Assembly: GCF_001747095.1 (NCBI RefSeq)
Contig: NZ_MDGP01000001.1
Location: 1,595,001 to 1,659,000 of the forward strand
Direction: 5' to 3'
Length of the DNA stretch: 64,000 bases
Origin: Roseivirga sp. 4D4
GTDB taxonomy: Bacteria > Bacteroidota > Bacteroidia > Cytophagales > Cyclobacteriaceae
Part shown: piece by piece, positions 1-23,341 of the stretch
Layout of the letters: the number at the start of each line of letters is the position of its first letter
Numbering within the stretch: the stretch's first letter is position 1
Made by a program: the position numbers and the translations under genes
The notes under the pieces: model-generated
What the model was told of the DNA's origin: nothing
Databases searched by the model: none
What the model saw: only the letters and a program-made list of their open reading frames with translations

Positions 1-70
1 GAAGGGAGGCGCTCGTCTGCCTATATCAATAAAGAAGGAACAATTACTTAAGCTTCTTTCTAGCACTTAA
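1..70 (+). CDS. LytTR response regulator, C-terminal end only (cut by window edge)
   Basis: Reading from base 2, the frame gives 22 residues ending in LPISIKKEQLLKLLSST and a TAA stop at 68-70. This matches the last residues of the regulator at 16573-17322 (GGVVYLENEVALPISVRKKERLAEML), including the LPIS-K-E-L pattern that closes LytTR DNA-binding domains. It lies about 110 bp upstream of a lipoprotein/adhesin pair, exactly where the two complete LytTR genes sit relative to theirs. I infer that a third kinase/regulator pair lies just left of the window. The fragment is short, so identity rests on the match plus position. Confidence 0.7.
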   Translation, partial: KGGARLPISIKKEQLLKLLSST

Positions 71-182
71 GCTCCTTTACCAAAAAAAGAACGGTGCTTA
101 TCAACAAACGGGGTAGCAACGTCAATAATTCCATTTTCCCATAACCTTATGGGTCATCTTAAGCACAATAAAATTGTGTGAA

Positions 183-617
183 ATGATGACTATAACTTTT
201 ACGAAGCGCCTTTGGTGCTGCATCCTACTTTTGTTTAGCGGCCTACTTTTTTACGGTTGCAAAGATGATCCTAATCCTCAGGAAGAGAGATTAAAAGAAC
301 TGACGGCTACTTGGGAAACCACAAGAGTCACTAATGACGCGGTTGACGTTACTGCTCAATTCAGCGATTTTGAGTTAACACTGAGTTCGGAAAGAACATT
401 CAGCACCGTTAATGGAGGTAACCCCTGGCCAGCTTCAGGCACTTTTTCATTTATAGATGAGACTAATCTTGATGTTATCAGAAGAAGTGACGGGGTTGAG
501 GTAAGAATAGTGGAAATCTCAGCCACCACATTGTCTCTCTCCTTTTCAATTAACTCCGTCAGAAGTGGCATAGACGGAATCACCGGAAACTTCACCTTTT
601 CACTTTCAAAACAATAG
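183..617 (+). CDS. Cassette 1 small lipoprotein (NGGNPWPASGTF family)
   Basis: Secreted lipoprotein of about 144 aa. It has a basic N-terminus, a hydrophobic stretch and the lipobox LFYGC followed by KDDPNP. The mature part is predicted to be beta-rich: a TW segment near the start, an invariant NGGNPWPASGTF, and an ending of GITGNFTFSLSK. That layout is reminiscent of the small lipocalin-like lipoproteins of Bacteroidota (inference). Two paralogues follow at 7492 and 17429, each directly before a SprB-repeat adhesin. The stop lies only 2 bases before the adhesin start, so the two are probably translationally coupled. I chose ATG 183; TTG 174 and ATG 186 are alternatives. Function is unknown; an adhesin partner or anchor is possible. 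Confidence 0.85.
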   Translation: MMTITFTKRLWCCILLLFSGLLFYGCKDDPNPQEERLKELTATWETTRVTNDAVDVTAQFSDFELTLSSERTFSTVNGGNPWPASGTFSFIDETNLDVIRRSDGVEVRIVEISATTLSLSFSINSVRSGIDGITGNFTFSLSKQ

Positions 618-619
618 AC

Positions 620-3600
620 ATGAAGAATATCTACATTATAAGAGTAATCTATATGATCCTTCTAGTCTGTACTACACAGTCTTTAATGGGTCAAAACTAT
701 TTCAACTGGGGAATATCCTTAGGAAATGTAAACGAAAATGAAGTAAGCGACCTAGCTGTCGATGACAGTGAAAATGTATATATCATTGGTACGTTGGAAG
801 GGACAATAGATATGAACCCTACGACTGCAACCAATAATGTCTCACCAGTTGGTGGCAAGGCCGTGTATTTAACCAAATATGATAAGAACGGTGTATTCCA
901 GTGGAGTACCGTAATAGAGGCCGAATCTGGTACTGATCTTGCCCTAAATGGCAGTGGGAGTATTATTGTTACCGGCACGCTCATTGGGTCAGCGACCATA
1001 GGAAGTATCACTTTGACGAATACGGAATCTAACACTGCCACGGCCAGTTTCATCGCTGGCTTTGACACTAGTAACGGTAGCTATCAAGGTGGTCGCGTAA
1101 TTGAGGGGACCGGAGTTCAGGAAACCTTTGATATAAAGGCTAAAGACGGTTTTATCTACCTTGCTGGTTCTTTTACCAATACGATAAATCTCGGTTCAGC
1201 CCTATCCGCTGGTGAATCTACACAACGTGGTAATGCCAAAGACTTCTTCATAGCGAGGTTCAATAACACTGGAGGTATTGACTGGGCCAAAACTGTAGCC
1301 ACAAATGGGGGAGCAAACAGAATTGAAGAGATAGAGCTGGATAATGATGGTGGTCTTTATCTAGGTGGAATACTAAGAGAAAATCTAAACTTTGACACAG
1401 GCATCAATCTCTCGGCCGCTTTTGATCCTATAAACAAAGGCTTCATTACCAAACTTGATACAGCAGGTAGTCTAAAATGGTTCAGGAGAACCAGACGTAC
1501 TGATCTGCCCGGTTCTCTTTTCTCTCCTTCAACAATAAATTCTATCGAGATAGATAGCCATGGAAACGTCTCAGGTGTAGGTCACGTCACTTTCGATGTC
1601 AGAATGGATCCTTTTAGTTCCATCCTCAACACTCAAAATTCAACTACTGATATTTTCATTGTAAAATTCACGTCAAATGGTTCGCCGATAAGCATGAATC
1701 ACATAGGTGCTCCTGGTACACTCACTGGAGTAAGACATGCGGTAGATGACAATGACAACTATATTATCATTGGTAATGGCCAAGACAGCAACAATGATTT
1801 TGACCTGGGTTCTGACACCCATAGTGTATCATTCAGCTCAGCCGAACGAGATATCTTTGTAGCCAAATATGACAGTTTGCTCAACTTTCAATGGGCGGAC
1901 GGATTTATTGGAAATAGCCTACTGGATCGCGCAGAAGGACTAGCTGAAAAGAATGGGAATATTTATGTAGCTGGATATCATGAAGGTGGAATTGATGTCG
2001 AATTTGGGCCAGGAAATACTGTACTGAGCACGCAAGGAGGCAGAGACATGTTCGTTGCAAGTATCAACAGTGTCTCAGTTTTCAATCAGGAGATCAATCT
2101 CTGTGATGGACAGTCAGTACAAGTCGGTGGTAATTCATACAACCAGATTGGCACTTACCAAGACCTCTTTACTGCAGGCTCCGTTTCGGGTAATGACTCC
2201 ATTGTGAACACTAATATCATGAGTATACTTCCACCGATTACCCTTACTGTAAGCACAACGGACAATCTATGTAATGGAGAAAGTAATGGTTCTGCTACCG
2301 TGGTAGCGAGTGACAATAACACCAGAAATTACACCTACAGTATCGATGGAAGCGCCTTTCAGACCTCTCCTACTTTTGATAATCTGAGTGCTGGGAATTA
2401 CACGATCATAGCCAAAGACTCCGACAGTTGCAGTGCCAACATTAACCTCACTATAAACGAGCCAAGTCCTTTTAGCGGAGCACCTTCTGTCATTGATAAC
2501 GTGTGCAGCGATGGTACCAGCGGCCAAATTACCATCAATGTGACTGGAGGTACCGGCACGCTTATGTACAGCATCGATGGGACAAATTTTCAGGCGTCCA
2601 ATGTATTCGATAATCTGGCTACTGGTGATTATGATATTACAGTCAAGGATGCCAATGATTGTACTGTTTCAGGGCAAGTCACGGTTGGGGCACCCACGGC
2701 ACTAACACTTTTGGAAGACACTAAGATAGATCCAAAATGTATGGGCAGTTCAGATGGGTTAATAGATGTATTCGCCACGGGTGGTACTGGCCCATACACC
2801 TACAGTATTGATGGCACTAATTTCTCAAATTCGAATACCTTTGGTAGCCTTAACTCGGGCGACTATTCAGTTACTGTTAAAGATGCCAACAATTGTACGA
2901 GCACTTTGCAAATCACACTAACCGACCCATCTCCACTGGTCATAGTACAATCTGCGATCACTCCCATCGACTGTAATGGTGCATCGACTGGTGGCATTAC
3001 AATACAAGGACAAGGTGGCACTCCTGGATACCAATACGCAATAAATGGAGGTAGTTTACAATCGAGTGGGGCCTTCACAGGCTTAGCGGCAGGAACTCAC
3101 ACTTTTACAATTCAAGATGCAAATGGTTGTACCCATACTGCAGACATAACATTAAGTGAGCCAGCTCCTTTTTCTATATCATCAACTATTACACCCATAA
3201 CGTGTAATGGAGATGCCAATGGAGTAATCACTATTGATCAAGTACAAGGAGGCACGAGTCCGTATCAATATTCAATTGATGGCACGAACTTTCAAAACCC
3301 TGCTAGTTTCGGGAGTCTATCGCCTGGGGATTATACCATCACCATTATGGACGCAAATGGCTGTACCACAACAAGGGATTTCAGCATAACAGAACCGCCC
3401 CTATTTTCAGGTTCTGTACAAACAGTGACAGACGTCACTTGTCATGGTGAGTCTAATGGCGCGATTATAGTAAATGCTTCTGGAGGATGGAGTGGTGTCA
3501 CATATTCCATCGATGGCACAAATTTTCAGTCTTCAGGTAGTTTTACAAATCTGGTTGCAGGATCTTATACCATTGTTGCTATGGACCAATTTGGATGTTC

Positions 3601-4567
3601 AATCCAATTGAACGCCACAGTAAATCAACCGACTCCTTTACAAGTACAGTTCGAACAAGTAGACGTCAGTTGTAATGGGGCTAGTGATGGACAAATTGCC
3701 GGAATAGGCTCTGGTGGTACAGCACCCTATTCGTATAGTCTTGATGGAACAAATTTTCAAACAACGGTATTTCAAGGGTTAAGCCCTGGCAGTTATACTT
3801 TGACTCTGAAAGATGCCAATGAATGTATTGAAACCACGACAGTCAATATTACTGAACCTAATATATTAACAACCAGCTTTAGTACGACCAATGCTATTTG
3901 TCACAATGAGGCCAACGGCACAATTACGCTTACATCAATGGGAGGCACCTCACCATATCAATACTCATTGGACGGATCAAGCTTTCAAAGCTCTCCGGAG
4001 TTTACCATGTTGGCAGCACGCAGTTATAGCGTAATCACAAGGGATGCCAATAATTGCACAATAACCACAGCGATTACAGTCTCCCAGCCTGATGCGCTTG
4101 TAGTTTCTGCTTCACTGCTAGATGACAATACCATTTCCGCTTCTGCGACAGGTGGTACAGGTCCGTATGAATATTCGCTAGATGGTTTGGTCTTTCAGAC
4201 CAGCGGAACATTTAGTGGTTTGGCTAATGGTAATTACACCGTAACTGTCCGTGATGCAAATGCCTGTGTTAGTACTATTGACCAATCTTTAATAGTAACA
4301 TCAGTTAACGAGCCTGTGCAATCGGTAATAGTTCGAATTTATCCTAACCCAGCCAAAGACCTGATTCAAATTAAGGATGTCCAAAAAGGTGATAGAATCA
4401 CTATAGCCGATGTCAACCGGCAAATTTCTGAAAGATTTCAGGTAAACAAATCTGATGAACCATTTATGATAGATATCTCAGCATTCAATGAAGGTGTTTT
4501 CATTCTTAGGATTGAGAGTGGCAATGGCAAACCCTCAGTCTTCAAAAAATTCATTAAGAAATATTAG
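620..4567 (+). CDS. Cassette 1 SprB-repeat adhesin with N-terminal propeller and T9SS sorting domain
   Basis: Predicted cell-surface protein of 1315 aa exported by Sec and then T9SS. Residues 1-25 are a signal peptide ending in LMGQ. Residues about 27-485 hold SBBP/propeller-like repeats (YLTKYDKNGVFQWS, FIARFNNTGGIDWAK). A linker with CDGQSVQVGG...GTYQD follows. From about 538 to 1227 there are eight SprB-type repeats of roughly 78 aa plus a ninth, degenerate one. Each full repeat has an early Cys (C-N-G-x-S-D-G), a YSIDGTNFQ core and a late Cys (DANGC). Residues about 1228-1315 form a type A T9SS C-terminal domain (IYPNPAKD...KKFIKKY). SprB of Flavobacterium johnsoniae is a gliding adhesin; whether this one serves gliding or attachment cannot be told here. 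Confidence 0.92.
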   Translation: MKNIYIIRVIYMILLVCTTQSLMGQNYFNWGISLGNVNENEVSDLAVDDSENVYIIGTLEGTIDMNPTTATNNVSPVGGKAVYLTKYDKNGVFQWSTVIEAESGTDLALNGSGSIIVTGTLIGSATIGSITLTNTESNTATASFIAGFDTSNGSYQGGRVIEGTGVQETFDIKAKDGFIYLAGSFTNTINLGSALSAGESTQRGNAKDFFIARFNNTGGIDWAKTVATNGGANRIEEIELDNDGGLYLGGILRENLNFDTGINLSAAFDPINKGFITKLDTAGSLKWFRRTRRTDLPGSLFSPSTINSIEIDSHGNVSGVGHVTFDVRMDPFSSILNTQNSTTDIFIVKFTSNGSPISMNHIGAPGTLTGVRHAVDDNDNYIIIGNGQDSNNDFDLGSDTHSVSFSSAERDIFVAKYDSLLNFQWADGFIGNSLLDRAEGLAEKNGNIYVAGYHEGGIDVEFGPGNTVLSTQGGRDMFVASINSVSVFNQEINLCDGQSVQVGGNSYNQIGTYQDLFTAGSVSGNDSIVNTNIMSILPPITLTVSTTDNLCNGESNGSATVVASDNNTRNYTYSIDGSAFQTSPTFDNLSAGNYTIIAKDSDSCSANINLTINEPSPFSGAPSVIDNVCSDGTSGQITINVTGGTGTLMYSIDGTNFQASNVFDNLATGDYDITVKDANDCTVSGQVTVGAPTALTLLEDTKIDPKCMGSSDGLIDVFATGGTGPYTYSIDGTNFSNSNTFGSLNSGDYSVTVKDANNCTSTLQITLTDPSPLVIVQSAITPIDCNGASTGGITIQGQGGTPGYQYAINGGSLQSSGAFTGLAAGTHTFTIQDANGCTHTADITLSEPAPFSISSTITPITCNGDANGVITIDQVQGGTSPYQYSIDGTNFQNPASFGSLSPGDYTITIMDANGCTTTRDFSITEPPLFSGSVQTVTDVTCHGESNGAIIVNASGGWSGVTYSIDGTNFQSSGSFTNLVAGSYTIVAMDQFGCSIQLNATVNQPTPLQVQFEQVDVSCNGASDGQIAGIGSGGTAPYSYSLDGTNFQTTVFQGLSPGSYTLTLKDANECIETTTVNITEPNILTTSFSTTNAICHNEANGTITLTSMGGTSPYQYSLDGSSFQSSPEFTMLAARSYSVITRDANNCTITTAITVSQPDALVVSASLLDDNTISASATGGTGPYEYSLDGLVFQTSGTFSGLANGNYTVTVRDANACVSTIDQSLIVTSVNEPVQSVIVRIYPNPAKDLIQIKDVQKGDRITIADVNRQISERFQVNKSDEPFMIDISAFNEGVFILRIESGNGKPSVFKKFIKKY

Positions 4568-4594
4568 CTGACTCGGTTGAGGAACCAAAAGTAG

Positions 4595-4659
4595 GCTATT
4601 CGGATGGAATAGCTTTTCACGCAAAGGCCACCCCAATATATCGGGGTGGTTTTTCTTTT
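4595..4659 (+). terminator. Double hairpin after adhesin 1
   Basis: Two hairpins lie in tandem. The first is GCTATTC/GAATAGC (4595-4613) followed by TTTT. The second is CCACCCC/GGGGTGG (4628-4649) followed by a T-rich run. The second is a standard intrinsic terminator. The same two-hairpin layout follows the other two adhesins, so it is part of the duplicated cassette. Confidence 0.8.
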
Positions 4660-4743
4660 GACTTAACCCATAACTACAGATTAAATCTAGGCTAATTGCA
4701 ATTTATCAATGGCTTCTTTGAAGGCTTTTCGTAAAATTGCCCC

Positions 4744-6636
4744 ATGCCTAGGCTAAAAACATTTCACTTACTGATCCTATTTGCACTCTTATTCTCATGC
4801 CAAAATCAGGGAGCTCGTAATGTATCGGAGTCTAGCAAAGAACTCATCGAGTCGTTTCGACTTCTTGAAAAAAGAGTAAGAGATAATTTTAGAGCCGCTG
4901 ACAGCACTATGGTTTTTGCCGAGGAAATGTTAGATCTGGCAGAATCAATCGGTCAATCGCAATACCTTGGAATAGCTTATAACACAAAAGCATCGGCTTT
5001 TGAACTTAAAGAACAATACGACTCAGCTATAACTAACTATGAAGAAGCTAAGGATCTCTTGGCAGATAGTGGAGACACCACTAACCTTAGTGTGAGTCTT
5101 AGAGGCCTTGGAACCTGCTATTTGTATCTTGGCCTCCACGATCTATCACTCCAGAGCTATCAAGAAGTCCTATCTATCACACTCAATGCTCAGGACAAAC
5201 CTTCACTAAGCAAAGCCTACAGTAACGTTGGTATGGTTCTTATGGAAGCCTCCATTCATGAAGAGGCCAGATCCTATTATCAAAAAGCCATAGATATTGC
5301 TCTTGCTGAAAACTCCATCTCCCTTGAGTTAGCGCCACTTTCCAACTTATCACTCTCTTACCTGAAGCAAGAACGATATGATTCTGCTATTTACTATGCA
5401 TCCATGGTCAAGCAAAAGTCTGAAGAAGTCGATCTGCAATATGGCATCGCAAAATCTACATACATCCTTTCCCAGTCCTATAGTGCTCTTGGCGATTTGG
5501 ACAGGGCTTATGAGGAGGCTCAGTTAGGAGAGAGTATTTACGAAAACCTAAAGTTGGAGCGAGACGCACGGGGCCAACGCTACTTGATGGCCCGCATCTT
5601 ATTTAAGTCAAACAAATTCAAAGAGGCATTATCCATGGTGGACGAGACCTTAGAGGAGAACTCCTTAGAAGAACTCAATGTGGACCTTCTCCAGATTCGA
5701 GCGGATATTCTCGAAGCACAAGGTAAGCGGACCGAAGCCCTATCTGCATACAAAGACTATATAGAAGCCTTTAGCCTTTTAAACCAAAGGAGGAACGACC
5801 AACTGATCGCTCAACAGCAATTTCGTTTCGATACAGAGTTGAAAAATCAACAGATTCAAACGTTAGAGGCAATTTCTCAAAGTCAAACTGATACGATTCG
5901 CAGGAAAAATTTATTGATTACCCTTGCTGTATTGGGTGCCGTGTTAATCTCCTTGCTCATTTACTTTATTTACCGCCAACGCACGATAAAGGCGCTCCAT
6001 AAGGAAATGATGGCACGCCAGAAACTAGCCAGTGCTCAACTAAACCCACACTTTATATTCAATGCACTCGGGGCCATCCAGGAATTAATACTACAAGAGG
6101 AAGACCCAATAAAGACCTCAAATTACCTGGCCAGATTTTCAACCCTCACTCGTCAGATGTTGAATTATACTGAACTGGATAGCATATCATTGCAAGACGA
6201 GTTGGATTTCTGCCGTAATTACCTCGATCTTCAAAAACTTCGGTTTGGTGATAAATTTGATTACCAATTTGAGGGATTAGAAAATATAAACTTGTCCGAT
6301 TTCTCCCTTCCTCCTCTTATCACACAGCCGCTAGTTGAGAACTCCCTAGAACATGGTTTTAAGAATCGATTAGGATCAAACAAGATAACCATTGATATAA
6401 AGTGTACCGCAAGTGGGTTGAGTCTGGCGATAGAGGATAATGGACTTGGTATAGAAAGGACAAGGAGAGAAAATGAGAGGACGGGTAAGTCGAAAGCATT
6501 GGAATTGACCAAAGGAAGACTCAAGTTTTGGGCTAAACAGACTGGGAAGATGGCCACCATGGAAATCTTGGATCTTTCAAGACTGAACATTGAGCGTTCT
6601 GGTACCCGAGTAACCCTTAACCTTCCAGCGATATGA
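4744..6636 (+). CDS. TPR-containing LytS-type sensor histidine kinase, cassette 2
   Basis: Membrane histidine kinase of 630 aa. The N-terminus looks like a lipoprotein signal (LLFSC, Cys19). Residues about 40-370 are tetratricopeptide repeats (for example LGTCYLYLGLHDLSLQSYQEVL), then a coiled segment and one transmembrane helix at about 390-410. The cytoplasmic part is the His_kinase (PF06580) type, with the phospho-acceptor His436 in LNPHFIFNAL and an ATPase domain with N-box QPLVENSLEHGF and G-box EDNGLGI. It overlaps the next gene by 4 bases (ATGA), so the pair is co-translated. It follows adhesin 1, but I infer that it controls the downstream lipoprotein/adhesin 2 pair, because the cassette order is kinase, regulator, lipoprotein, adhesin. 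The stimulus is unknown. Confidence 0.93.
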   Translation: MPRLKTFHLLILFALLFSCQNQGARNVSESSKELIESFRLLEKRVRDNFRAADSTMVFAEEMLDLAESIGQSQYLGIAYNTKASAFELKEQYDSAITNYEEAKDLLADSGDTTNLSVSLRGLGTCYLYLGLHDLSLQSYQEVLSITLNAQDKPSLSKAYSNVGMVLMEASIHEEARSYYQKAIDIALAENSISLELAPLSNLSLSYLKQERYDSAIYYASMVKQKSEEVDLQYGIAKSTYILSQSYSALGDLDRAYEEAQLGESIYENLKLERDARGQRYLMARILFKSNKFKEALSMVDETLEENSLEELNVDLLQIRADILEAQGKRTEALSAYKDYIEAFSLLNQRRNDQLIAQQQFRFDTELKNQQIQTLEAISQSQTDTIRRKNLLITLAVLGAVLISLLIYFIYRQRTIKALHKEMMARQKLASAQLNPHFIFNALGAIQELILQEEDPIKTSNYLARFSTLTRQMLNYTELDSISLQDELDFCRNYLDLQKLRFGDKFDYQFEGLENINLSDFSLPPLITQPLVENSLEHGFKNRLGSNKITIDIKCTASGLSLAIEDNGLGIERTRRENERTGKSKALELTKGRLKFWAKQTGKMATMEILDLSRLNIERSGTRVTLNLPAI

Positions 6637-7364
6637 AAGCATTGATTATTGACGATGAACTGTATGTGCATCGAAGTCTGAAAAAACTGATCAGTCATGT
6701 AGCCAAGGACGTTGAGATTTTGGGTACTTCTACCGGAGTGCTAGAGGGATTGAACATGATCAAAGAATTCAATCCAGATCTGATTTTTCTGGATATTCAA
6801 ATGGAAGATGGTACTGGTTTCGATTTGCTGAGTAAAATCAAGGGACATTGCCCCTATACCATCTTCATCACAGCACATGATGAACATGCTCTTGAAGCTT
6901 TCAACTTTAGTGCAGTTGACTACATTGTAAAACCAGTAGAAACCACAAGACTTCAAGAAGCGATCGATAAAGCACGAGAAAGGCACAAAAGCGGTTTATT
7001 TCAACTACAGTTGGATAACCTCCAGTCTCACGTTGGCCAAAATCAAAGAAAATCAAGAATCGTACTTCGAGACCTGAACAACGTCTACGCTCTTGATATA
7101 GAGGAGATTCTTTGGTTAAGTGCTGAGGGCAGTTATACTGGCTTTCACTTAACGAATGGAGAAACACTAATGATTTCTAAGAATCTTAAGGAATATGAGC
7201 AAATGCTTAGCGGTTTCAGTTTCTTCAGAATACACAGGTCGTTTCTAGTGAATAGTGATCTTGTGACTCGTTATGACAAAAACGAAAACGCATTGATATT
7301 CAAAGGCGGAAATAGCCTCACGATTTCAATCAGCAACGACCAGCTCAAGTCCATGTTAGGATAA
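6633..7364 (+). CDS. LytTR-family response regulator, cassette 2
   Basis: Two-domain regulator of 243 aa. The receiver domain spans about 1-120, with acidic D7/D8, phospho-acceptor Asp54 in LIFLDIQM and Lys in the closing VDYIVKP. A LytTR DNA-binding domain covers about 140-240 (IVLRDLNNVYALDIEEILW, then FFRIHRSFLVN). It starts inside the last codons of the kinase at 4744, which makes that kinase its partner. The next gene is the cassette 2 lipoprotein, 127 bp downstream, and is the likely target. LytTR proteins usually bind pairs of 9-bp direct repeats; I found no convincing pair ahead of the lipoprotein gene. Confidence 0.94.
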   Translation: MKALIIDDELYVHRSLKKLISHVAKDVEILGTSTGVLEGLNMIKEFNPDLIFLDIQMEDGTGFDLLSKIKGHCPYTIFITAHDEHALEAFNFSAVDYIVKPVETTRLQEAIDKARERHKSGLFQLQLDNLQSHVGQNQRKSRIVLRDLNNVYALDIEEILWLSAEGSYTGFHLTNGETLMISKNLKEYEQMLSGFSFFRIHRSFLVNSDLVTRYDKNENALIFKGGNSLTISISNDQLKSMLG

Positions 7365-7491
7365 GTTCAATACCCCATCAATCGAATTTGGGTTTTCACA
7401 AAACCAATCCTTGACTTCATACATTACCCTCATTTGAGAGGTCTTTTCAACTCATCTTTTAATCCAGTTATACCAAAACTTGATTTTAAAG

Positions 7492-7935: not shown

Positions 7936-7937
7936 GC

Positions 7938-14438: not shown

Positions 14439-14465
14439 TCCAATGGTTGAGGACACACATATTTA

Positions 14466-14530
14466 GGCTACTCATACGGAGTAGCCCTTTTTCACACATA
14501 GGCCACCTCGATATATCGGGGTGGTTTTTC
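14466..14530 (+). terminator. Double hairpin after adhesin 2
   Basis: The first hairpin is GGCTACTC/GAGTAGCC (14466-14486) followed by CTTTTT. The second is CCACCTCG/CGGGGTGG (14503-14525, one G-U pair) followed by TTTTTC. It is nearly identical in sequence to the module after adhesin 3 and homologous to that after adhesin 1. Confidence 0.82.
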
Positions 14531-14667
14531 TTTATCAACAGAATCGAAACCCCACACTTATTGCTAAAAAACAAACGCTTATCAACTACCGAGCAACGCT
14601 AATCCGACCAAGCCCTATATAGATTATCTAGGCTTATATATCTTAACAGTTTTTACTTAATTGCTAG

Positions 14668-16569
14668 ATGTTTAATCGGTTAAGTTCAATCTTCATTTTA
14701 CTGACGATCACTCTTTTTTCTTGTCAGAAAGATGAGGTGAAGCCAGAAACCATAGGGCAAGAAGATCTTGATGCTGAATTCAAAAAACTAGTAACTCGTA
14801 TTGAAAAGAATGGACGCAGAGCAGATAGTATTCGAATATTGACAAATAGCTTGGTCAGTATTGCTCATAAATTAAATAATGACAATCAACTTGGTACGGC
14901 ATTCAGGATAAGAGCAAGTGCATTCGAAATGGCCAGTCAATTTGACTCAGCGATCTACCTCTATCAAAAGTCGGCTACTCATTTTGTAAGGTCAAAGGAC
15001 TCAGTCAGCTTGGCTGATGCTTATAAAGGGCTTGGTACCTCCTATTATTTTCAAAATCTATTCGATTCAGCTCTAGTCTATTATCAAAAGTCGGCAGACC
15101 TTCTATACAGTTACACTGACAAAACAGCTTTGGCAAAAGCCTATAGCAATCTAGGTATGGTGCTCACAGCCTCCGACTTAAGCGATCAGGCACTCTCTTA
15201 CTATCAAAAAGCACTGGTCATCACTAAGGACAGTCCAAACCCTATGGACAAACTCCCTACTCTCCTTAACATATCAGCACTCTTTTTAAAAGAAGAAGTT
15301 TATGACTCTGCACTCATATATGCCAACCAGGTAAATTCAATTTCTAGGCGCTCCAACATCCCTTTTGGTGTTGGAAAAAGTGCAAGTGTTTTGGCCTCGA
15401 TACACTTGGCTCAGCAGAACTTGGACCAAGCGGAAAAAGAAATATTAGAAAGCATTCAAATCTTTTTTGAAACGCAAATGCAAAGAGACCTCATGGCAGT
15501 TAAATGGCAATACGCACAAATTCTGTTTGCCAAGAATGAGCACAGAAAGGCAATTGAACTGACTGATGAGGTCTTGACCCTGCCTGGAGGTAATACGCTT
15601 GCGAAAAACGTGTATCAATTGCAATCCCAATCTTATGAAAACCTCGGGCAAAAGGAAGAAGCGTTGACGACATACAAAAAGTATCACACCACCTTCGAAC
15701 AGATCGCAGACAAAAGAAATAAAGACATCATTGCCGAGAAAGAGATTGAATTTAATTCCGAGCTAAAAAATCGAGAAATCTTGAGGTTGAAAAATGAGGC
15801 AGATATAAATGAGTTAAAGATTGAACAAAGAAATATTATGGTTTTTATCGCTGTCATTATTACGGTACTAGTGCTAATTATTACTTATCTGCTGCTCAGA
15901 TCGTTGAAGGCCAGATCGAACAAACAGGTAATGGAATTGGAAAATCGGTTGTTACGCACACAGTTAAATCCACATTTCCTCTTTAACGCCATGGGCGCCA
16001 TACAGCAATACATCTATAATAAAGAAGATCCGACCATAATCTCGGACTACTTGGGCAAATTCTCTAGGCTTACTCGTATGATCCTTAATTATAGCAAGGA
16101 AGAACTCATTACACTTAAAGAAGAGCTTGAATTTCTAGACCATTACATTCAATTACAGCAGATCAGATTTGAAGTCCCTTTTGATTTCAAGGTAGAAACT
16201 GATAGTACGATTGACCCTGATGAGCTACTCATTCCACCAATGCTCACACAACCCTTTATAGAAAACGCCATTGAACATGGTTTTCTACATAAGGATACAA
16301 AAGGACATATTACACTCACTATAAATGAGAAAAACGATCAAGTAATGATTACCGTGGAGGACGATGGAGTGGGTAGAAAGCAAGCAGCTCTTTTAAATAA
16401 AAAGACTAAACACCAATCAATGGCTACTCAAATCACCATTGATCGACTAAAACTGATTCAGAGAAAGCTCAGGCGGAAAACCGATTTCTTAATTACTGAT
16501 CTTTTCGATTCTCAAAACCAGGCCCTTGGCACGAGAGTATCTGTAAATTTACCTTTGATAAAAGAATAG
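14668..16569 (+). CDS. TPR-containing LytS-type sensor histidine kinase, cassette 3
   Basis: Paralogue of the kinase at 4744, 633 aa. It starts with a lipoprotein-like signal (TLFSC followed by QKDE). TPR units follow from about 40 to 370 (LGTSYYFQNLFDSALVYYQKS), then a charged helix and a transmembrane segment (IMVFIAVIITVLVLIITYLLL, about 391-411). The kinase part has the phospho-acceptor His436 in LNPHFLFNAM, N-box QPFIENAIEHGF and G-box VEDDGVGR. His falls at the same residue number as in the paralogue, so spacing is fully conserved. It ends 3 bases before the regulator at 16573. By cassette order it should control lipoprotein/adhesin 3. Confidence 0.93.
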   Translation: MFNRLSSIFILLTITLFSCQKDEVKPETIGQEDLDAEFKKLVTRIEKNGRRADSIRILTNSLVSIAHKLNNDNQLGTAFRIRASAFEMASQFDSAIYLYQKSATHFVRSKDSVSLADAYKGLGTSYYFQNLFDSALVYYQKSADLLYSYTDKTALAKAYSNLGMVLTASDLSDQALSYYQKALVITKDSPNPMDKLPTLLNISALFLKEEVYDSALIYANQVNSISRRSNIPFGVGKSASVLASIHLAQQNLDQAEKEILESIQIFFETQMQRDLMAVKWQYAQILFAKNEHRKAIELTDEVLTLPGGNTLAKNVYQLQSQSYENLGQKEEALTTYKKYHTTFEQIADKRNKDIIAEKEIEFNSELKNREILRLKNEADINELKIEQRNIMVFIAVIITVLVLIITYLLLRSLKARSNKQVMELENRLLRTQLNPHFLFNAMGAIQQYIYNKEDPTIISDYLGKFSRLTRMILNYSKEELITLKEELEFLDHYIQLQQIRFEVPFDFKVETDSTIDPDELLIPPMLTQPFIENAIEHGFLHKDTKGHITLTINEKNDQVMITVEDDGVGRKQAALLNKKTKHQSMATQITIDRLKLIQRKLRRKTDFLITDLFDSQNQALGTRVSVNLPLIKE

Positions 16570-16572
16570 GCC

Positions 16573-17322
16573 ATGGAATGCGTAATTATTGACGATGAAA
16601 AACCTTTTATCAATGCCCTAAGGGCCATGTTAGAGCATCATGGAGGTATAGAAGTATTGGGGGAAGCAAGAGGTGTGGATTCAGGCATCCAACTCATTGA
16701 AGAATTAGAGCCAGAACTAGTTTTTCTCGATATTCAAATGAGCGATGGCACTGGGTTTGACCTATTGAAAAAACTCGATCGGCAAGATTTCCATGTAATT
16801 TTCATAACCGCTCACGATCAGTTTGCAATTGATGCATTCAAGTTTAGCGCGATGGACTATTTACTCAAACCATTAATCTCAAGCGAACTTAAAAAAGCAC
16901 TTGACCGAGCGCAGAAGAGTATTGATAAAGAGAAACTGAACTTTCAGTTTTCGGTCTTAATGGAAAACATCAATGAGATTTCCAGAGGCAAGAAGAAAAT
17001 TATACTTCGAGAATCTGAAAACTTACATATCGTTAAACTCGATGATATTCTATGGTGCCAGGCTGATGGTAGTTATACCGTTTTCTACTTGACAGACGAC
17101 CGCAAGATTATGGTATCGAAACATCTGAAGGAATTTGAGGAATATCTGAGCCCCAACGGGTTTTTCAGGGCTCACAGATCTCATTTGGTCAATGTCAGTA
17201 AAATAACACGCTTTGATAGAGCTGATGGCGGAGTGGTATACCTTGAAAATGAAGTAGCACTTCCGATTTCTGTCAGAAAAAAAGAAAGGCTGGCAGAAAT
17301 GTTAAATTCCCTTCAAGCTTAG
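16573..17322 (+). CDS. LytTR-family response regulator, cassette 3
   Basis: Regulator of 249 aa and partner of the kinase at 14668. The receiver domain (1-120) has D7/D8, phospho-acceptor Asp53 in LVFLDIQM and a closing Lys in MDYLLKP. The LytTR domain runs from about 140 to 245 (KIILRESENLHIVKLDDILW, then FFRAHRSHLVNVSKI). ATG follows the kinase stop after 3 bases (gcc). The lipoprotein gene of cassette 3 lies 106 bp downstream. A LytTR-like half site (AACGTTCAT) occurs in that gap at 17347, which would fit direct control of the following adhesin operon, but a single site is weak evidence. Confidence 0.94.
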   Translation: MECVIIDDEKPFINALRAMLEHHGGIEVLGEARGVDSGIQLIEELEPELVFLDIQMSDGTGFDLLKKLDRQDFHVIFITAHDQFAIDAFKFSAMDYLLKPLISSELKKALDRAQKSIDKEKLNFQFSVLMENINEISRGKKKIILRESENLHIVKLDDILWCQADGSYTVFYLTDDRKIMVSKHLKEFEEYLSPNGFFRAHRSHLVNVSKITRFDRADGGVVYLENEVALPISVRKKERLAEMLNSLQA

Positions 17323-17346
17323 TAAAACACTCATCAAGTCAGAGAG

Positions 17347-17388
17347 AACGTTCATTGATTCACAAGCTACTCTCTTCAATACGTCAAA
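17347..17388 (+). promoter_or_regulatory. Candidate LytTR-type binding sites ahead of lipoprotein 3
   Basis: AACGTTCAT at 17347-17355 fits the published LytTR half-site pattern (T/A)(A/C)(C/A)GTTN(A/G)(T/G). TACGTCAAA at 17380-17388 fits 7 of 9 positions. Their starts are 33 bp apart, about three helical turns, not the usual 21-22. The gap ahead of lipoprotein 1 has a similar AACGTCAAT at 118-126. Tentative. Confidence 0.25.
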
Positions 17389-17428
17389 TCAACTCCTAGT
17401 CTAGTCAAATACATTCATTGGTAAATGA

Positions 17429-17875
17429 ATGTATATGAAACAACTCTACTCAAAAAAAAGAATCCTTTATGCCTCAATAGCGCTTTTTTGCTTGGTTTTA
17501 GGTTGCAAAGACGATGACCCATCACCCAGTGAGCAACGGTTGATAGACCTGACCGCTACCTGGAATGTATCTAGTGTTATCAATGATGGCACCAATGTAA
17601 GCGATCAGTTTACGGGTTTTAGTTTAACCGTGTCAGGTGACAAGACCTACGCTACTGTCAATGGTGGTAACCCATGGCCTGCATCAGGAACTTTTGACCT
17701 GAACCCAGATGACCTGGACACTTTCATAAGAGATGATAATGTAGAAGTCTCCATTGTTGAAATCACGGCAACAGCCCTTTCCCTCTCCTTTCAGATGAGC
17801 AATGTGCGGAGTGTGCGTTCTGGCACCTCGGGCATTACCGGCTCTTTCACTTTTAACCTTACTAAAACCAATTAA
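17429..17875 (+). CDS. Cassette 3 small lipoprotein (NGGNPWPASGTF family)
   Basis: Third member of the lipoprotein set, 148 aa from ATG 17429. An internal ATG at 17435 (MKQLYSKK) is equally good for the signal peptide. The lipobox LVLGC is followed by KDDDPSPSE. The mature part repeats the family pattern: LTATWNVSS, NDGTNVSDQFTGF, invariant NGGNPWPASGTF, and the end GITGSFTFNLTK. Three bases separate its stop from the adhesin start. The high similarity of the whole mature part among the three copies, against strong divergence of the adhesin N-termini, suggests a conserved job such as holding or maturing the adhesin at the outer membrane. That is inference only. Confidence 0.87.
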   Translation: MYMKQLYSKKRILYASIALFCLVLGCKDDDPSPSEQRLIDLTATWNVSSVINDGTNVSDQFTGFSLTVSGDKTYATVNGGNPWPASGTFDLNPDDLDTFIRDDNVEVSIVEITATALSLSFQMSNVRSVRSGTSGITGSFTFNLTKTN

Positions 17876-17878
17876 GCA

Positions 17879-20800
17879 ATGAAACGATTATTGATTTTTC
17901 TAATCATGTGCTGCTGTCTATCTACATTAAATGCGCAGCATAACTTTGACTTTGTTTACTCATTTGAACAAGGAGGTAATACGCCTATCCTTATTGACGG
18001 ACCTCAAAATAGAACATATGTACTCCTACAACCGTCTGGATCAGTTACTCTTGACCCAAAGAACGGCTTTCTGAGAACAAGCAGGCCTACCAACTACCCT
18101 GGTTCTGTCTTCTATGCCATTGGTATTTATAATGATGACGGCTCCTACTATAGGGGATTCATAATAGATGTTGAAGCTGGAAGCGACAGAATTAAAATGG
18201 ATGTGGCTGATAATGGAGACATCTATATTTTTTCAGCCTTTAAAGATCAGGCACTCCTTGATCAATCTAATCCCACAACAAGAACCATAGATGAGTCAGG
18301 CAAAGCAGGTTTTTTCATCGCACGATATAGCGGTCAGACAGGTGCCTTAATAAACCATATGCACAGTGCCTATGCCAGTTCTACTCAAATAGTTGAAGGT
18401 CAAAATATAAAGGTGCTACCAAATGGACAGATTGCCGTAACCGGAAATCTCACCGATCAAATTGATATGTCATTCGGTAATAATACCGGTGTATTCGGTA
18501 CAAATGGTAGTATTGAAACATTTGTTGGGTTATACAATGCTGACCTTAGCTATGACAAGGGTTTTACATTTGGAGGGCAAGGTGTTTTAAACGCAATTGA
18601 TGTTACTTCAACCAATGATGTGGTGGTTGTAGGTTATGTTGCTAACAACGCCACCATTGATATTGACCCTGCTGCAGGTCAAATATCTCTTACCAATGCC
18701 AATAGAAACAGAAACTTCTTAGCGAAATATGATGCCAACCTCGATTACCAAGCTCATATCGACTTTGGCGAAGGCAATGTATCTGCCAGCAGGTTTGTAA
18801 CGATTGACGAACATGATAGCATCTATTTTGCCAGCAACACGGCTTGGGAAGGTATAATGGACAATACCAGAGATAGACTTGATCTGGATAATTCAAGTGG
18901 GACATTTGATGCCGTTACTGCTCAAAACCGTGGCGTTTTCATCGGAAAATATTCAAAGGATCTTGTTTTTGGTGGTGGAACAGTCCTAGGCGGTAAAGAA
19001 GATATGCCTGTCTTCTTTAGAGAATTAGATGTAAAAAATGACAAAATCTATCTAAATGTCGCTGAATACAATGCAAGTGGACCCAACCAAGTGGACCTAA
19101 GCCCTAGAGATAAACCTACTTTTCTCATTAATAAGAACTTCTCCGTTTTAATGACTATGGATAGAAACTTTGATGTAATTGGTTTTGATAGAATTCCAGG
19201 TAGTTATAACAGAGCAGCTGTCATTGGCAGTAATGGAGACATAATGTATGTGGGCAGTACGGGTAATAACAATGATGTTAATTCAGGGTCTGGTGTTAAC
19301 ACGCCAGGACAAAGCGGGATGTATATAGCTAAAATGTCAAGTTGTACTGGAAGTATCACCAGTAACACACCAGCTGTATGTTTTGGTGATTCTTATACTA
19401 TTGGCAATAACGCATATACACAAGAGGGTACTTATCTTGATGTACTCGAAGATCAAAACGGATGCGATAGTCTGGTCGTTACCAGCCTATTTTTTCCATC
19501 CAGTCCCGTGACTCCTGTGATTACATCCTTTACAGACATTACCTGTAATGGTGCATCAGATGGAACTATTACATTGAATATAACAGGGGGTATTGCCCCA
19601 TATGAAGTAAGTGGAGATGGTGTTCAGTTTTTCCCGTTCCCCGACAACAACTTGTTGACTAACGTCCCCCCAATCAATAACCAGCCTCTCATCATTCGAG
19701 ATGCTAATGGATGTATAACAAACACAGCTCCAGTTACTATACAAGAACCATCTGCTCTAAGCTTTAATCCTGCTACCATTTCAGCTCCAACTTGTACAAA
19801 TGGTAATGATGGTAGCATAGTCATTTCTGTACAGGGCGGTACTGCACCGTATTCATATAGTCTCGATGGTGTTACTTATCAACCCAACGACACTTTCAGT
19901 GGTGTATTAAGCTCAGGGGATCAAATAATCTATGTACAAGATGCGAATGGTTGTGAGATTAGTGAGACAGTGACCATACCTGATGCATTACCATTGGATG
20001 CAACAATAACTACCACGGCAACGACAAGCTGTGGGGTTGTAGACGGTACAATTACCATCTCCTCTCCGGTTAATGGTCAAGCGCCTTATGAGTTCAGCAT
20101 AGATGGTGGTACAACTTTTCAGGCTACTACCCTATTTAGTGGACTGTCCGCAGGAATTTATACGATTACCATCAAGGACAATAATGGCTGTACCAATGAT
20201 GTTCAGACTACAATCACAGAACCTTCTGCGATTACTGCTACTACTACGTTTATTGATCCACTCTGTAATGGTAGTGCAGACGGCAGCATCACCGTAGCAA
20301 CTGTAGGTGGTGGCGTTGCCCCTTATGAATATTCGATTAATGGAGGCACCTTTCAAACAGGTAGCACTTTTAATGGACTTTCGGGAGGCACTTATATTAT
20401 TACTGTGAAAGACGCGACCAATTGTACTTTCTCTATCACGAATACACTCATTGAACCTAGCCCACTTACGCTAGTAGCTACAGTAACTTCTGACGTAATA
20501 TGCAACGGTGGAGATAATGGTGTTGTCACGCTAACAGCCGGTGGAGGAACAGGCGTTTACCAATATGAAATTATCGGACAGGCTGTAACTACAAACAATA
20601 TATTCACAGAGTTAAGCGCTGGTAATTACATATTTATGGTAACGGATGTGAACGGATGTACAACATCAGTTCAAACGACCGTTGGAGAACCTACCCAAAT
20701 TGTCTTAAGTGCAAGTATCACCAAATCACTTGCTTGTAATGGTGATACCAATGGAGAAGTCTCTGCTACCGCTTCCGGAGGAACGGGACCATATACTTTT

Positions 20801-23254
20801 AGCATTGATGGGATGAACTATCAGAACGGCTCTACTTTTGACAATCTATCTGCAGACAGCTACACGATAACGGTTAGGGATGGAAACAACTGCGAGCAGA
20901 GCACAACGATCCAGCTCACAGAACCTCTGGCCATTTCTGTCCAAACGACCGTCAATAATGTAACCTGTTTTGGCGGAAGTGACGGTATAATTGACGTATC
21001 AGCCTCTGGGGGTACAGGAGGCCTTACATATAGCATAGATGGTACTACCTTCAATAGTAGTGACAACTTTAGCAATCTGGCTGCAGGCAGTTATACTATC
21101 TCTGTGCAAGACGCTTTGGGTTGTACAACTACGATCAGCGCCACTGTGGCAGAGCCGACAGCAATCATGCTCAATTTCGAAGCAGTGGATGTCACATGCA
21201 ATGGTGAAGCTGATGGGCAAATCGCAGGATTTACTTCAGGAGGAACAGCGCCATATCAATATTCATTAGATGGCACGAATTTCCAAGCAGGACCCTTTGC
21301 AGATTTAGCACCGGGCAACTATACGCTTACAGTTATTGATGCCAATAATTGTACAACCACCCAGACAGTCACCATCACTGAACCTGATATCTTGATGGCG
21401 AGCATTACGAATATCGTAGATGCAACCTGCAATGGTGCCGACAATGGTTCAGCAGGTATTTCTGTAACTGGTGGATCAACTCCGTATAGCTATAGCATTA
21501 ATAGTGGAGCTTTCAATACTAGTGTAGACCTGACTGGGTTGTCACCTGCGAACTATTCAATAATCATCAAAGATGCCAATGACTGCGAAACCATAGCAAA
21601 CTTCACTATTACTGAACCAACCGCCATATCAGGAACAGCAATGACAACTGCTGTTTTATGTAATGGTGGCAGTGATGGCACGATAACCGTTACCGCCTCA
21701 GGGGGCACTGGCACTTTGATCTATAGCATCAATGGAACAGATTTTCAGCCCTCTAATATCTTTAGCGGATTGAGCTCTGGTAATTATACCGTCAGTATTA
21801 AGGATGACAATTCCTGTATTTCGACTCTCTCAGCTAATGTTGCTGAGCCAACACCTATACAAGTAAATGCAAGTGTTACTGACCTAACCTGTAATGGAAA
21901 TGGTTCTGGTGAAATTGATATTACAGCAACAGGTGGTACTGGTGCATATGAGTACAGTATTGATGGCACCATTTTTCAAAATACAGAAACTTTCAGTGGC
22001 CTTCAAGCAGGAACTTACACTGTTGTTGTAAGAGATGTGAACAGTTGTACGGTGACTACCAGCATCACAATTACAGAGCCTTCTGTCCTAGGAGCCGGTT
22101 TCAACAACATAAGTCACATTTCTTGTAATGGTGCAAATGATGGTTCTGCTCAAATCGATGTAACTGGAGGTACAGCCCCATTTACCTACAGTGTTAATGG
22201 TGGAAGCTTTAGTTCTTCTATTGACTTGAACAACCTATCACCAGGAGGATATGCAGTAGTAGTTAGAGATGCTAATAATTGCGAAGCCAATGCCAGCTTC
22301 ACAATACTGCAACGTCCTCCTTTAACTGCTACAGTTACTTCAACCCAGCTGGTTTGTAACGGAGATAGTGATGGTTCAATTACGGTAACAGCTACAGGAG
22401 GAACTGGAGACCTGTCATACAGTTTAAATGGTAGTACTTTCCAGCCATCAAGTAACTTTACTGGACTGTCCGCAGGCAATTATACGGTTACCATTAAGGA
22501 TGAAAATGGCTGTGAATTTATTGTGAACACTGACATCACTCAACCGGCAGCGATTCAGGTGAGTACTACAGTGACTAACCTCACCTGCAATGGTGACAAT
22601 ACTGGTGCTGTTGACCTGACTGCCTCTGGTGGAACAGGTGCACTGACCTACTCTATTGATGGGACAAACTTCCAATCGGAAACTAGTTTCAGTGGATTAG
22701 CTGCAGGTAACTACACCTTAGTGGTCAAAGATGACAGTGACTGTACTTTGGCCAGTAATCTGACCATTACAGAACCTGATGTTTTAATGGTTAGCGCAGT
22801 TATAGTGGATGACAATACCATCTCAGCTACAGCTACAGGAGGTACAGGCCCATATGAGTATTCTATAGATGGCACCAACTTTCAAGGAAGCGGCACTTTC
22901 AGCGGACTGACCAATGGCAATTACAATGTGACAGTTCGCGATGCAAATCAGTGTATGGCTAGCATTTCCCAAACGCTGATAGTAACCTCTTTCGATAAAA
23001 CAGGACACTCGGTCAGTGTCAAAACCTACCCTAACCCTACCCAGGGAGAATTGATAATCACTGGTTTATCTACAGGTGATAAAATCTCCTTGATGAATGT
23101 AAACGGACTCAAGTTGATACAGGATAGGAAGGTTCAAAAAGATGGTGACTTAACCCTTGACATTTCCGAACTCCCTAATGGTATCATTTTAATAAGGGTT
23201 CAAGACAAAGCGGGTATTATAAAAGGTGTTCGGAAGGTGATAAAAAAGACCTAA
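17879..23254 (+). CDS. Cassette 3 SprB-repeat adhesin with N-terminal propeller and T9SS sorting domain
   Basis: Predicted surface protein of 1791 aa. The signal peptide ends at about residue 20 (LNAQ). Residues about 20-495 resemble the propeller-like N-terminus of adhesin 1 (FIARYSGQTGALINH, FLAKYDANLDYQAHIDFGEG). A Cys-containing linker follows (CFGDSYTIGN...GTYLDVLEDQNGCDS). From about 540 to 1702 there are 14 SprB-type repeats with two Cys each, plus the terminal unit without the first Cys (VDDNTISATATGGTGPYEYS). A type A T9SS domain starts near 1703 (TYPNPTQGE) and ends KGVRKVIKKT. Domain order equals that of adhesin 1 but with more repeats. Likely an adhesin of the outer surface; its ligand is unknown. 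Confidence 0.92.
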   Translation: MKRLLIFLIMCCCLSTLNAQHNFDFVYSFEQGGNTPILIDGPQNRTYVLLQPSGSVTLDPKNGFLRTSRPTNYPGSVFYAIGIYNDDGSYYRGFIIDVEAGSDRIKMDVADNGDIYIFSAFKDQALLDQSNPTTRTIDESGKAGFFIARYSGQTGALINHMHSAYASSTQIVEGQNIKVLPNGQIAVTGNLTDQIDMSFGNNTGVFGTNGSIETFVGLYNADLSYDKGFTFGGQGVLNAIDVTSTNDVVVVGYVANNATIDIDPAAGQISLTNANRNRNFLAKYDANLDYQAHIDFGEGNVSASRFVTIDEHDSIYFASNTAWEGIMDNTRDRLDLDNSSGTFDAVTAQNRGVFIGKYSKDLVFGGGTVLGGKEDMPVFFRELDVKNDKIYLNVAEYNASGPNQVDLSPRDKPTFLINKNFSVLMTMDRNFDVIGFDRIPGSYNRAAVIGSNGDIMYVGSTGNNNDVNSGSGVNTPGQSGMYIAKMSSCTGSITSNTPAVCFGDSYTIGNNAYTQEGTYLDVLEDQNGCDSLVVTSLFFPSSPVTPVITSFTDITCNGASDGTITLNITGGIAPYEVSGDGVQFFPFPDNNLLTNVPPINNQPLIIRDANGCITNTAPVTIQEPSALSFNPATISAPTCTNGNDGSIVISVQGGTAPYSYSLDGVTYQPNDTFSGVLSSGDQIIYVQDANGCEISETVTIPDALPLDATITTTATTSCGVVDGTITISSPVNGQAPYEFSIDGGTTFQATTLFSGLSAGIYTITIKDNNGCTNDVQTTITEPSAITATTTFIDPLCNGSADGSITVATVGGGVAPYEYSINGGTFQTGSTFNGLSGGTYIITVKDATNCTFSITNTLIEPSPLTLVATVTSDVICNGGDNGVVTLTAGGGTGVYQYEIIGQAVTTNNIFTELSAGNYIFMVTDVNGCTTSVQTTVGEPTQIVLSASITKSLACNGDTNGEVSATASGGTGPYTFSIDGMNYQNGSTFDNLSADSYTITVRDGNNCEQSTTIQLTEPLAISVQTTVNNVTCFGGSDGIIDVSASGGTGGLTYSIDGTTFNSSDNFSNLAAGSYTISVQDALGCTTTISATVAEPTAIMLNFEAVDVTCNGEADGQIAGFTSGGTAPYQYSLDGTNFQAGPFADLAPGNYTLTVIDANNCTTTQTVTITEPDILMASITNIVDATCNGADNGSAGISVTGGSTPYSYSINSGAFNTSVDLTGLSPANYSIIIKDANDCETIANFTITEPTAISGTAMTTAVLCNGGSDGTITVTASGGTGTLIYSINGTDFQPSNIFSGLSSGNYTVSIKDDNSCISTLSANVAEPTPIQVNASVTDLTCNGNGSGEIDITATGGTGAYEYSIDGTIFQNTETFSGLQAGTYTVVVRDVNSCTVTTSITITEPSVLGAGFNNISHISCNGANDGSAQIDVTGGTAPFTYSVNGGSFSSSIDLNNLSPGGYAVVVRDANNCEANASFTILQRPPLTATVTSTQLVCNGDSDGSITVTATGGTGDLSYSLNGSTFQPSSNFTGLSAGNYTVTIKDENGCEFIVNTDITQPAAIQVSTTVTNLTCNGDNTGAVDLTASGGTGALTYSIDGTNFQSETSFSGLAAGNYTLVVKDDSDCTLASNLTITEPDVLMVSAVIVDDNTISATATGGTGPYEYSIDGTNFQGSGTFSGLTNGNYNVTVRDANQCMASISQTLIVTSFDKTGHSVSVKTYPNPTQGELIITGLSTGDKISLMNVNGLKLIQDRKVQKDGDLTLDISELPNGIILIRVQDKAGIIKGVRKVIKKT

Positions 23255-23275
23255 GGTGAGTAAGCAAACCTTTCC

Positions 23276-23341
23276 GGCTGCTCATACGGAGTAGCCCTTT
23301 TTCACACATAAGCCATCCCGATACACCGGGGTGGCTTTTTA
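23276..23341 (+). terminator. Double hairpin after adhesin 3
   Basis: GGCTGCTC/GAGTAGCC (23276-23296) is followed by CTTTTT. GCCATCCCG/CGGGGTGGC (about 23312-23335) is followed by TTTTT. It shares long identical stretches with the module at 14466, showing that the 3' flank was duplicated with the cassette. Confidence 0.82.

Follow-up and report, generated by a model that had tools for sequence, protein, structure and literature searches.

Tandem kinase/regulator/lipoprotein/adhesin cassettes with a shared promoter anatomy in Roseivirga sp. 4D4

The 64,000-nucleotide stretch of Roseivirga sp. 4D4 analysed here (1.595-1.659 Mb of the 4.58 Mb genome, whose main contig measures 4,576,104 bp; hereafter the window) carries three tandem cassettes, all on the + strand, each comprising genes for a tetratricopeptide-repeat (TPR) sensor kinase, a LytTR response regulator, a small lipoprotein and a giant adhesin of the type IX secretion system (T9SS), followed by a double hairpin. 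The arrangement is real and conserved, apparently undescribed, and built from known parts. Each cassette is probably a self-contained adhesin regulon, in which the cognate kinase and regulator would activate the adjoining lipoprotein-adhesin operon.

Cassette architecture

The tandem order had been proposed in a first-pass annotation of the sequence, and it was read in all three cassettes; because it also recurs in other genomes, it is not due to chance. The third kinase/regulator pair that this annotation had deduced from a regulator tail at positions 1-70 is present just upstream of the window on the same chromosome, where the kinase of 678 amino acids (aa) and most of the regulator of the first cassette complete the set (kinase 1, L007 12300-14336; regulator 1, L007 14333-15070). 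The near contact within gene pairs, likewise noted there, could be measured: the kinase and regulator open reading frames (ORFs) share 4 nt in cassettes 1 and 2, with a separation of 3 nt in cassette 3, and lipoprotein and adhesin genes lie 2-3 nt apart. The double hairpins 3' of the three adhesins fold with z scores of -4.5, -6.9 and -7.1 relative to shuffled sequences.

A mechanism can be proposed from the gene order, domains, operator, -10-like box, terminators and conservation, all of which were read in the sequence. As domains and hydropathy suggest, a membrane kinase with a periplasmic TPR sensor would phosphorylate its own LytTR regulator, which would then bind three 9-bp repeats located 28 nt 5' of a -10-like box and activate the lipoprotein-adhesin operon. 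The two products would be co-translated, and the type A sorting signal of the adhesin would direct it to the T9SS for export. The lipocalin-like lipoprotein would reach the outer membrane and, to judge from the conserved adjacency, probably cooperate there with the adhesin by anchoring, capping or helping to fold it. Double terminators would insulate each cassette, such that the tandem array would provide three separately switchable adhesins per cell.

A shared operator and -10-like box

An unsupervised search was applied to the 13 cassettes of the window and its relatives with a regulator-lipoprotein gap of >60 bp, cassette U61a being left out. The best motif, found in 13/13 gaps, consists of three 9-bp direct repeats with a consensus near GCTTATCAA and a period of exactly 21 bp. 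This array scores 144, whereas 17 other periods give 74-96 and 40 shuffles 80.3 +/- 4.9 (maximum 92.8), and with full-length gaps the score is 169.8 at 21 bp versus 82-100 at periods of 19, 20, 22 and 23. Control gaps from the same loci, 31 in number, gave a maximum of 87.2 at 21 bp over 20 draws of 13. On leave-one-out testing, 11/13 arrays were equalled by 2 or fewer of 300 shuffles. Arrays of four copies, sought in the longer gaps only, again score highest at 21 bp among five periods tried (107.7, the others 73-83). A motif trained exclusively on the 10 cassettes from outside the window and applied to both strands of 270 kb of this genome (538,624 positions) ranks the window operators 1, 14 and 31. 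The -10-like box lies 28 nt past the third repeat in 12/13 cassettes and 27 nt past it in the other, with a score of 62.3 against a shuffle maximum of 41.7; none of 300 shuffles was as good, nor any of 200 when two near-duplicate cassettes were dropped.

The literature describes LytTR sites as a pair of 9-11 nt repeats separated by spacers of 11-13 nt (PMC4847170), a geometry that the operators fit with one repeat more. The position of the operator relative to the box suggests activation, and the promoter anatomy shared by the cassettes, which is new here, supports the predicted cognate activation. A further operator-like site lies 5' of kinase 3 and ranks 10 in the 270-kb scan, which found none at kinases 1 and 2. 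Arrays upstream of kinases are generally weak (108 vs 86 for shuffles, maximum 96) and, by eye, are clear mainly at kinase 3, U61b and U63b.

The regulators might instead be general LytTR regulators that happen to sit here and that control many loci or activate one another's cassettes. The genome-wide count of 36 LytTR and 24 His_kinase matches would accommodate such a role, as would the operator-like scores found elsewhere in the 270 kb and 5' of kinase 3. It is nonetheless considered unlikely, given that the control gaps of the same loci lack the array signal, and given the strict period and spacing to the box.

Kinases and regulators

Profiles for His_kinase (PF06580), TPR, Response_reg and LytTR were matched in Pfam; in every cassette the scores for His_kinase, Response_reg and LytTR exceed the cut-offs. 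The kinases display TPRs, a single hydrophobic stretch centred at about residues 395-450, and then a LytS-type kinase bearing the H-box, which reads [NS]PHF[ILV][FY]N in 14/14 cassette kinases. Kinase 1 begins with a signal peptide, and kinases 2 and 3 have a lipobox-like N-terminus; the hydropathy profile points to a periplasmic TPR sensor ahead of the transmembrane (TM) segment and kinase. The top NCBIfam match of all three is FimS (NF053520), at 41.5, 77.3 and 26.4 bits, below the curated cut-off of 600.

A recent duplication of the cassettes was ruled out by the sensor identity among the three window kinases, which is only 16-32%. Kinase 3 is nearest to the kinases of the relatives G010 (51%) and G007 (47%), compared to 34% with kinase 2, and the copies are thus old. 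A TPR-type kinase/LytTR pair outside the cassettes was observed at 1.196 Mb (L019 6078-8782), beside genes that appear hydrolase-like by eye and with no adhesin adjoining.

The lipoprotein family and its neighbours

The three window lipoproteins share 47-52% pairwise identity, the invariant stretch NGGNPWPASGTF, and C-K-D-D after the lipobox cysteine (3/3); the looser pattern C.{0,2}[DE][DE] occurs in 39/51 lipoprotein relatives. A surface-export signal of the form K-(D/E)2 after the lipidated Cys has been shown in other genera (PMC5080379). The N-terminus of the cassette lipoproteins appears to be of this surface-export type, which would place them in the outer membrane or at the surface. Resemblance to Lipocalin_4 (PF13648; cut-off 22.4) is weak overall, with 30.9 bits for P0005, 21.2 for P0009 and no match for P0001, and extends at E<=0.01 to 21/51 relatives. 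A sequence search of the PDB at E<=1 returned no relative.

A profile search with the lipoprotein gave 265 proteins at E<=1e-3, the best 120 of which were listed, and a scan of GTDB genomes yielded 11 loci; the close relatives that bear names belong to Roseivirga and other Cyclobacteriaceae. Around the stronger matches in 58 relatives, 80 regions were fetched, leaving out the weaker tail. The resulting survey set comprises 95 non-redundant lipoprotein genes, 15 of which form a close family at E<1e-40, and their neighbours were classified with profiles built here for the lipoprotein, SprB, the sorting domain, the kinase and the regulator.

In the close family, the next gene downstream of all 15 lipoprotein genes encodes a surface protein of the T9SS that bears SprB-like repeats. 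Kinase and regulator genes are found upstream in all 14 loci that include upstream DNA (the U6061 regulator being recognised by eye from its ORF), and one more locus begins at a contig end. In one of these 14, FE80a, regulator and lipoprotein are separated by two ORFs on the opposite strand (L148 496-2739), with the operator array retained on the lipoprotein side. The adhesins of seven of the 14 cassettes were compared to Pfam: Por_Secre_tail is above cut-off in 7/7, one has a sub-threshold SprB match and another has none, and distant cassettes have few SprB repeats. The cassette core thus looks like a kinase, a regulator, a lipoprotein and a type A surface protein, with large numbers of SprB repeats as an apparent elaboration.

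The 80 more distant relatives present a different picture. In 57 of them, the gene immediately upstream encodes a protein bearing a T9SS sorting domain and in most cases lies only a few bases away (the relatives at L008 10204-10632 and L009 7268-7696, for example, each follow a type A protein); none of the completely covered partners is below 700 aa, and only 2 have SprB matches, leaving 55/80 behind T9SS proteins without such repeats. The rest are divided among a fixed locus (14), a position upstream of a T9SS protein (1), region edges (2) and other places (6). At the fixed locus, the lipoprotein relative stands behind genes for 260-aa and 205-aa proteins that look LpxA-like and ABC-like by eye.

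In total, the lipoprotein adjoins a T9SS-sorting-domain protein in 73/95 genes, and so seems to partner the type A T9SS surface proteins as a class rather than SprB. This general link favours a partner or anchor role over one purely in signalling. The earlier expectation that the lipoprotein family would be found beside SprB-repeat genes is thus upheld for the close family and not for the distant one. The suggestion that each adhesin has a circuit and lipoprotein of its own draws support from the conserved adjacency and from the LytTR-type operator at each operon.

Type A adhesins and the SprB-SprF pair

Pfam recognises 9, 22 and 15 SprB stretches in adhesins 1, 2 and 3, respectively, together with Por_Secre_tail. 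All three carry a type A sorting signal (TIGR04183/PF18962), above cut-off for TIGR04183 in each, and with their signal peptides (judged by eye) and type A C-terminal domains (CTDs) they have the features of type A cargo; the PorU sortase is encoded in the genome. The type B sorting domain (TIGR04131) was not found in the three cassette adhesins and is present in the genome's other SprB, a 2962-aa protein encoded elsewhere, with an SprF/PorP gene 3 nt downstream. The SprF/PorP family PF11751 has 4 genes in the genome, none of them within the window and one behind this type B SprB.

Type A cargo is described as recognised by PorV, and type B cargo as often linked to PorP/SprF-like shuttles (PMC12618676). 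The cassette adhesins are, on the evidence of their sorting domains, a type A branch separate from the genome's SprB. The first-pass annotation had set the lipoprotein partner against the SprF that accompanies SprB of gliding bacteria, a contrast that is not borne out: SprF-like shuttles serve type B proteins, and a separate SprB-SprF pair exists in this genome. The lack of an adjoining SprF needs no explanation because the adhesins carry type A signals, and its absence was rejected as a remarkable feature since type A cargo does not use SprF.

A chimeric kinase and covariation among the parts

Kinase 2 is a chimera. Its sensor resembles that of FE80a, with 35-72% identity per 60-residue window up to residue 390, compared to 7-33% with cassette-1-type kinases, while its transmitter resembles the latter; the switch occurs at about residues 330-400, at or just before the TM stretch. 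The regulator and -10-like box of cassette 2 are also of cassette-1 type, and the start of adhesin 2 is of FE80a type (43% over 341 residues), a match that falls within SprB repeats since both proteins begin with repeats.

Across 13 cassettes, transmitter and regulator covary strongly (r 0.82). With these two controlled, the sensor tracks the lipoprotein (partial r 0.43; 6/5000 permutations) and, to a lesser degree, the adhesin N-terminus (0.27; 77/5000). Transmitter and regulator track neither, with values against the lipoprotein of 0.14 and 0.06 (319 and 689 of 2000). In the seven Roseivirga cassettes alone, the sensor correlates at 0.35 with the lipoprotein (234/5000) and at 0.25 with the adhesin N-terminus (781/5000). 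Plain identities in 14 cassettes gave correlations with the lipoprotein of 0.65 for the sensor, 0.49 for the transmitter (0/5000) and 0.29-0.30 for the regulator (47-50/5000). Species structure may explain part of the sensor covariation, and gene conversion of a conserved block could look alike.

These patterns raise the tentative and rather improbable idea of a cargo-reading circuit, in which the periplasmic TPR domain would recognise its own adhesin or lipoprotein, sense its secretion or engagement, and adjust that adhesin alone. If true, the cassette 2 chimera would be a natural domain-swap test, with the sensor staying with the adhesin type and the transmitter, regulator and operator swapped. 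The co-segregation of sensor and adhesin in cassette 2 could instead be a by-product of gene conversion replacing the transmitter-regulator block, with no functional matching, an explanation given a little under even chances. Transmitter and regulator are the more conserved parts, where conversion would presumably be easiest, and the sensor-adhesin correlation is modest overall and not convincing in Roseivirga alone. The location of the adhesin 2/FE80a match in repeats with which both proteins start also fits conversion, as does FE80b, a counter-example to sensor-adhesin matching whose sensor is of cassette-1 type and whose adhesin N-terminus is nearer to those of cassette 3 and G010. Against conversion, the closest non-orthologous Roseivirga sensor pair (window 2/FE80a, 47%) also shares its adhesin type.

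The same covariation keeps a role like that of QseG possible for the lipoprotein. As a third signalling component, it would be periplasmic, bind the TPR sensor and report adhesin synthesis or assembly, thereby giving cargo-specific feedback. In keeping with this, the sensor tracks the lipoprotein in the 13-cassette analysis and the transmitter and regulator do not, and there is precedent in QseG, which serves the kinase QseE (PMC6075780), and in FimS, where mutations in the periplasmic TPRs are described as altering fimbrial expression (PMC11053733). The covariation is weak in Roseivirga alone, however, and the plain-identity version ties transmitter and regulator to the lipoprotein as well, less than the sensor. 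Moreover, at the 18/57 T9SS-linked relatives where the gene upstream, beyond the T9SS protein, was readable, there was no kinase match and one regulator match, and the lipoprotein N-terminus is like a surface-export signal. A signalling role of this kind appears doubtful, and the lipoprotein is more readily seen as a partner of the adhesin.

Distribution and history of the locus

Within the genus, close-family lipoproteins (E<1e-49) occur in 4/19 genomes, including that of the window. In a sample of 390 genomes from the order, with 10 candidates scored per genome, the close family was found only in the window's own; the other three carriers in the genus are missing from the match list and so probably lie outside the sample. 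No cassette was found at the insertion site in 15 relatives whose DNA there was covered, some of it cut by contig ends. In G001, for instance, the flanking TPR gene, TonB-like gene, glyoxalase and hydrolase stand together without a cassette. G010 has a single cassette at the same site and G007 has three elsewhere. Near the insertion site in G013 (L133 4389-9756), an analogous but unrelated adhesin unit was observed, with a LuxR-type regulator, a 148-aa exported-looking protein without a Pfam match, and a type A protein of 1366 aa bearing FG-GAP, HYR and one SprB repeat.

This variable presence of cassettes, along with the chimeric kinase 2, could indicate that the tandem array is above all a reservoir from which recombination generates surface variation, the regulators being passengers. 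The adhesins of FE80a and FE80b also bear on this view: their 3' ends (L032, L020) show 77% identity across 485 bp, the only strong match between the two genes, a pattern that suggests gene conversion. The three window adhesins, however, have no common block of at least 90 bp at 74% identity or more, the copies are divergent, and regulators and operators are conserved, so that a mainly reservoir function appears very improbable.

Several observations weigh against the view that the cassettes are self-contained regulons. The HATPase_c match is under the Pfam cut-off in all three window kinases, and the extra TPR kinase-LytTR pair at 1.196 Mb makes crosstalk possible. The gap in the 14th cassette, U61a, is 24 bp, too short for the array; the U1842 and U63a arrays fare poorly on leave-one-out, where 29 and 25 of 300 shuffles, respectively, did as well; operator 2 ranks only 31, with higher scores elsewhere in the 270 kb; and window position 57824 scores 12.4, nearly the 12.8 of the best operator. 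In addition, the fixed locus that holds 14/80 distant relatives (L010 7698-8195 and 13 similar) is unrelated and has no adhesin link, and the lipoprotein's location and role are deduced from a motif and adjacency only.

Table 1. Features of the three cassettes in the window.
Feature	Position	Strand	Evidence
LytTR response regulator 1, 3' end (245 aa in all)	1..70	+	Pfam REC + LytTR; its kinase His_kinase + TPR
Operator 1, three 9-bp direct repeats, 21-bp period	75..125	+	Rank 1 of 538,624 positions, other-genome training
-10-like box TCATCTTA, 28 nt past third repeat	154..161	+	Box search
Lipoprotein 1, 147 aa from TTG; ATG a few codons in is the probable start	174..617	+	
Adhesin 1, 1315 aa: signal peptide (by eye), SBBP-like N-terminal part, SprB repeats, type A CTD	620..4567	+	
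Double terminator hairpin after adhesin 1	4592..4660	+	Folding vs shuffles
Sensor kinase 2: lipobox-like N-terminus, TPRs, one TM stretch, NPHFIFN; chimeric	4744..6636	+	
LytTR response regulator 2	6633..7364	+	Pfam
Operator 2	7373..7423	+	Rank 31
-10-like box TCATCTTT	7452..7459	+	Box search
Lipoprotein 2, Lipocalin_4 above cut-off	7480..7935	+	
Adhesin 2, 2166 aa: SprB repeats nearly from start, type A CTD	7938..14438	+	
Double terminator hairpin after adhesin 2	14463..14540	+	Folding vs shuffles
Operator-like triple repeat 5' of kinase 3, possible autoregulation	14556..14606	+	Rank 10
Sensor kinase 3	14668..16569	+	Pfam
LytTR response regulator 3	16573..17322	+	Pfam
Operator 3	17329..17379	+	Rank 14
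-10-like box AATACATTCA	17408..17417	+	Box search
Lipoprotein 3	17429..17875	+	
Adhesin 3, 1791 aa: own N-terminal part, SprB repeats, type A CTD	17879..23254	+	
Double terminator hairpin after adhesin 3	23274..23341	+	Folding vs shuffles

Significance and comparison with known systems

To our knowledge, the switching of individual T9SS surface proteins in Bacteroidota is little understood, and a compact unit of sensor, regulator, operator, lipoprotein and adhesin would make it directly testable. The lipoprotein family, so often beside sorting-domain proteins, is a candidate general accessory factor for the T9SS pathway. The signal of the TPR kinase FimS is given as unknown (PMC11053733), and the sensor-adhesin pairs of the cassettes may offer a hint of where to search for it. 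No such cassette was seen among the matches listed by title and start of abstract in one open-access collection, where, at this listing level, SprB repeat and LytTR did not occur together, nor did Roseivirga and SprB, and the combination of T9SS, lipocalin, lipoprotein and adhesin gave a surface-display review only.

Among known systems, FimS-FimR of Porphyromonas gingivalis likewise employs a kinase with a periplasmic TPR sensor in the control of a surface-adhesion structure (PMC11053733). The cassette kinases, however, score 26-77 bits, far below the FimS cut-off of 600, they are predicted to control a T9SS adhesin and its lipoprotein rather than fimbriae, and the cassettes are in tandem. 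The gliding adhesin SprB and its shuttle SprF resemble the cassettes in having a giant surface protein, secreted by the T9SS, that contains SprB repeats, and differ in that the cassette adhesins are type A instead of type B, have no adjoining SprF and come with a two-component system of their own. LytS/LytTR systems such as YpdA/YpdB also pair a PF06580 kinase with a LytTR regulator that acts at 9-bp direct repeats with a 12-bp spacer (PMC4847170), whereas the cassettes have three repeats instead of two, a TPR sensor, and the adjacent adhesin operon as the predicted target.

Two further systems invite comparison through their additional components. In QseE-QseG-QseF, a lipoprotein gene is linked to those of a kinase and regulator (PMC6075780), a likeness of gene linkage, and the cassette lipoprotein differs in being part of the predicted target operon. 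For PorA-PorXY-SigP of P. gingivalis, the proposal is that a protein with a CTD passes a signal from the surface on to a two-component system (PMC7712824), but PorA affects genes of the T9SS machinery, whereas the predicted target of each cassette is the adhesin operon itself.

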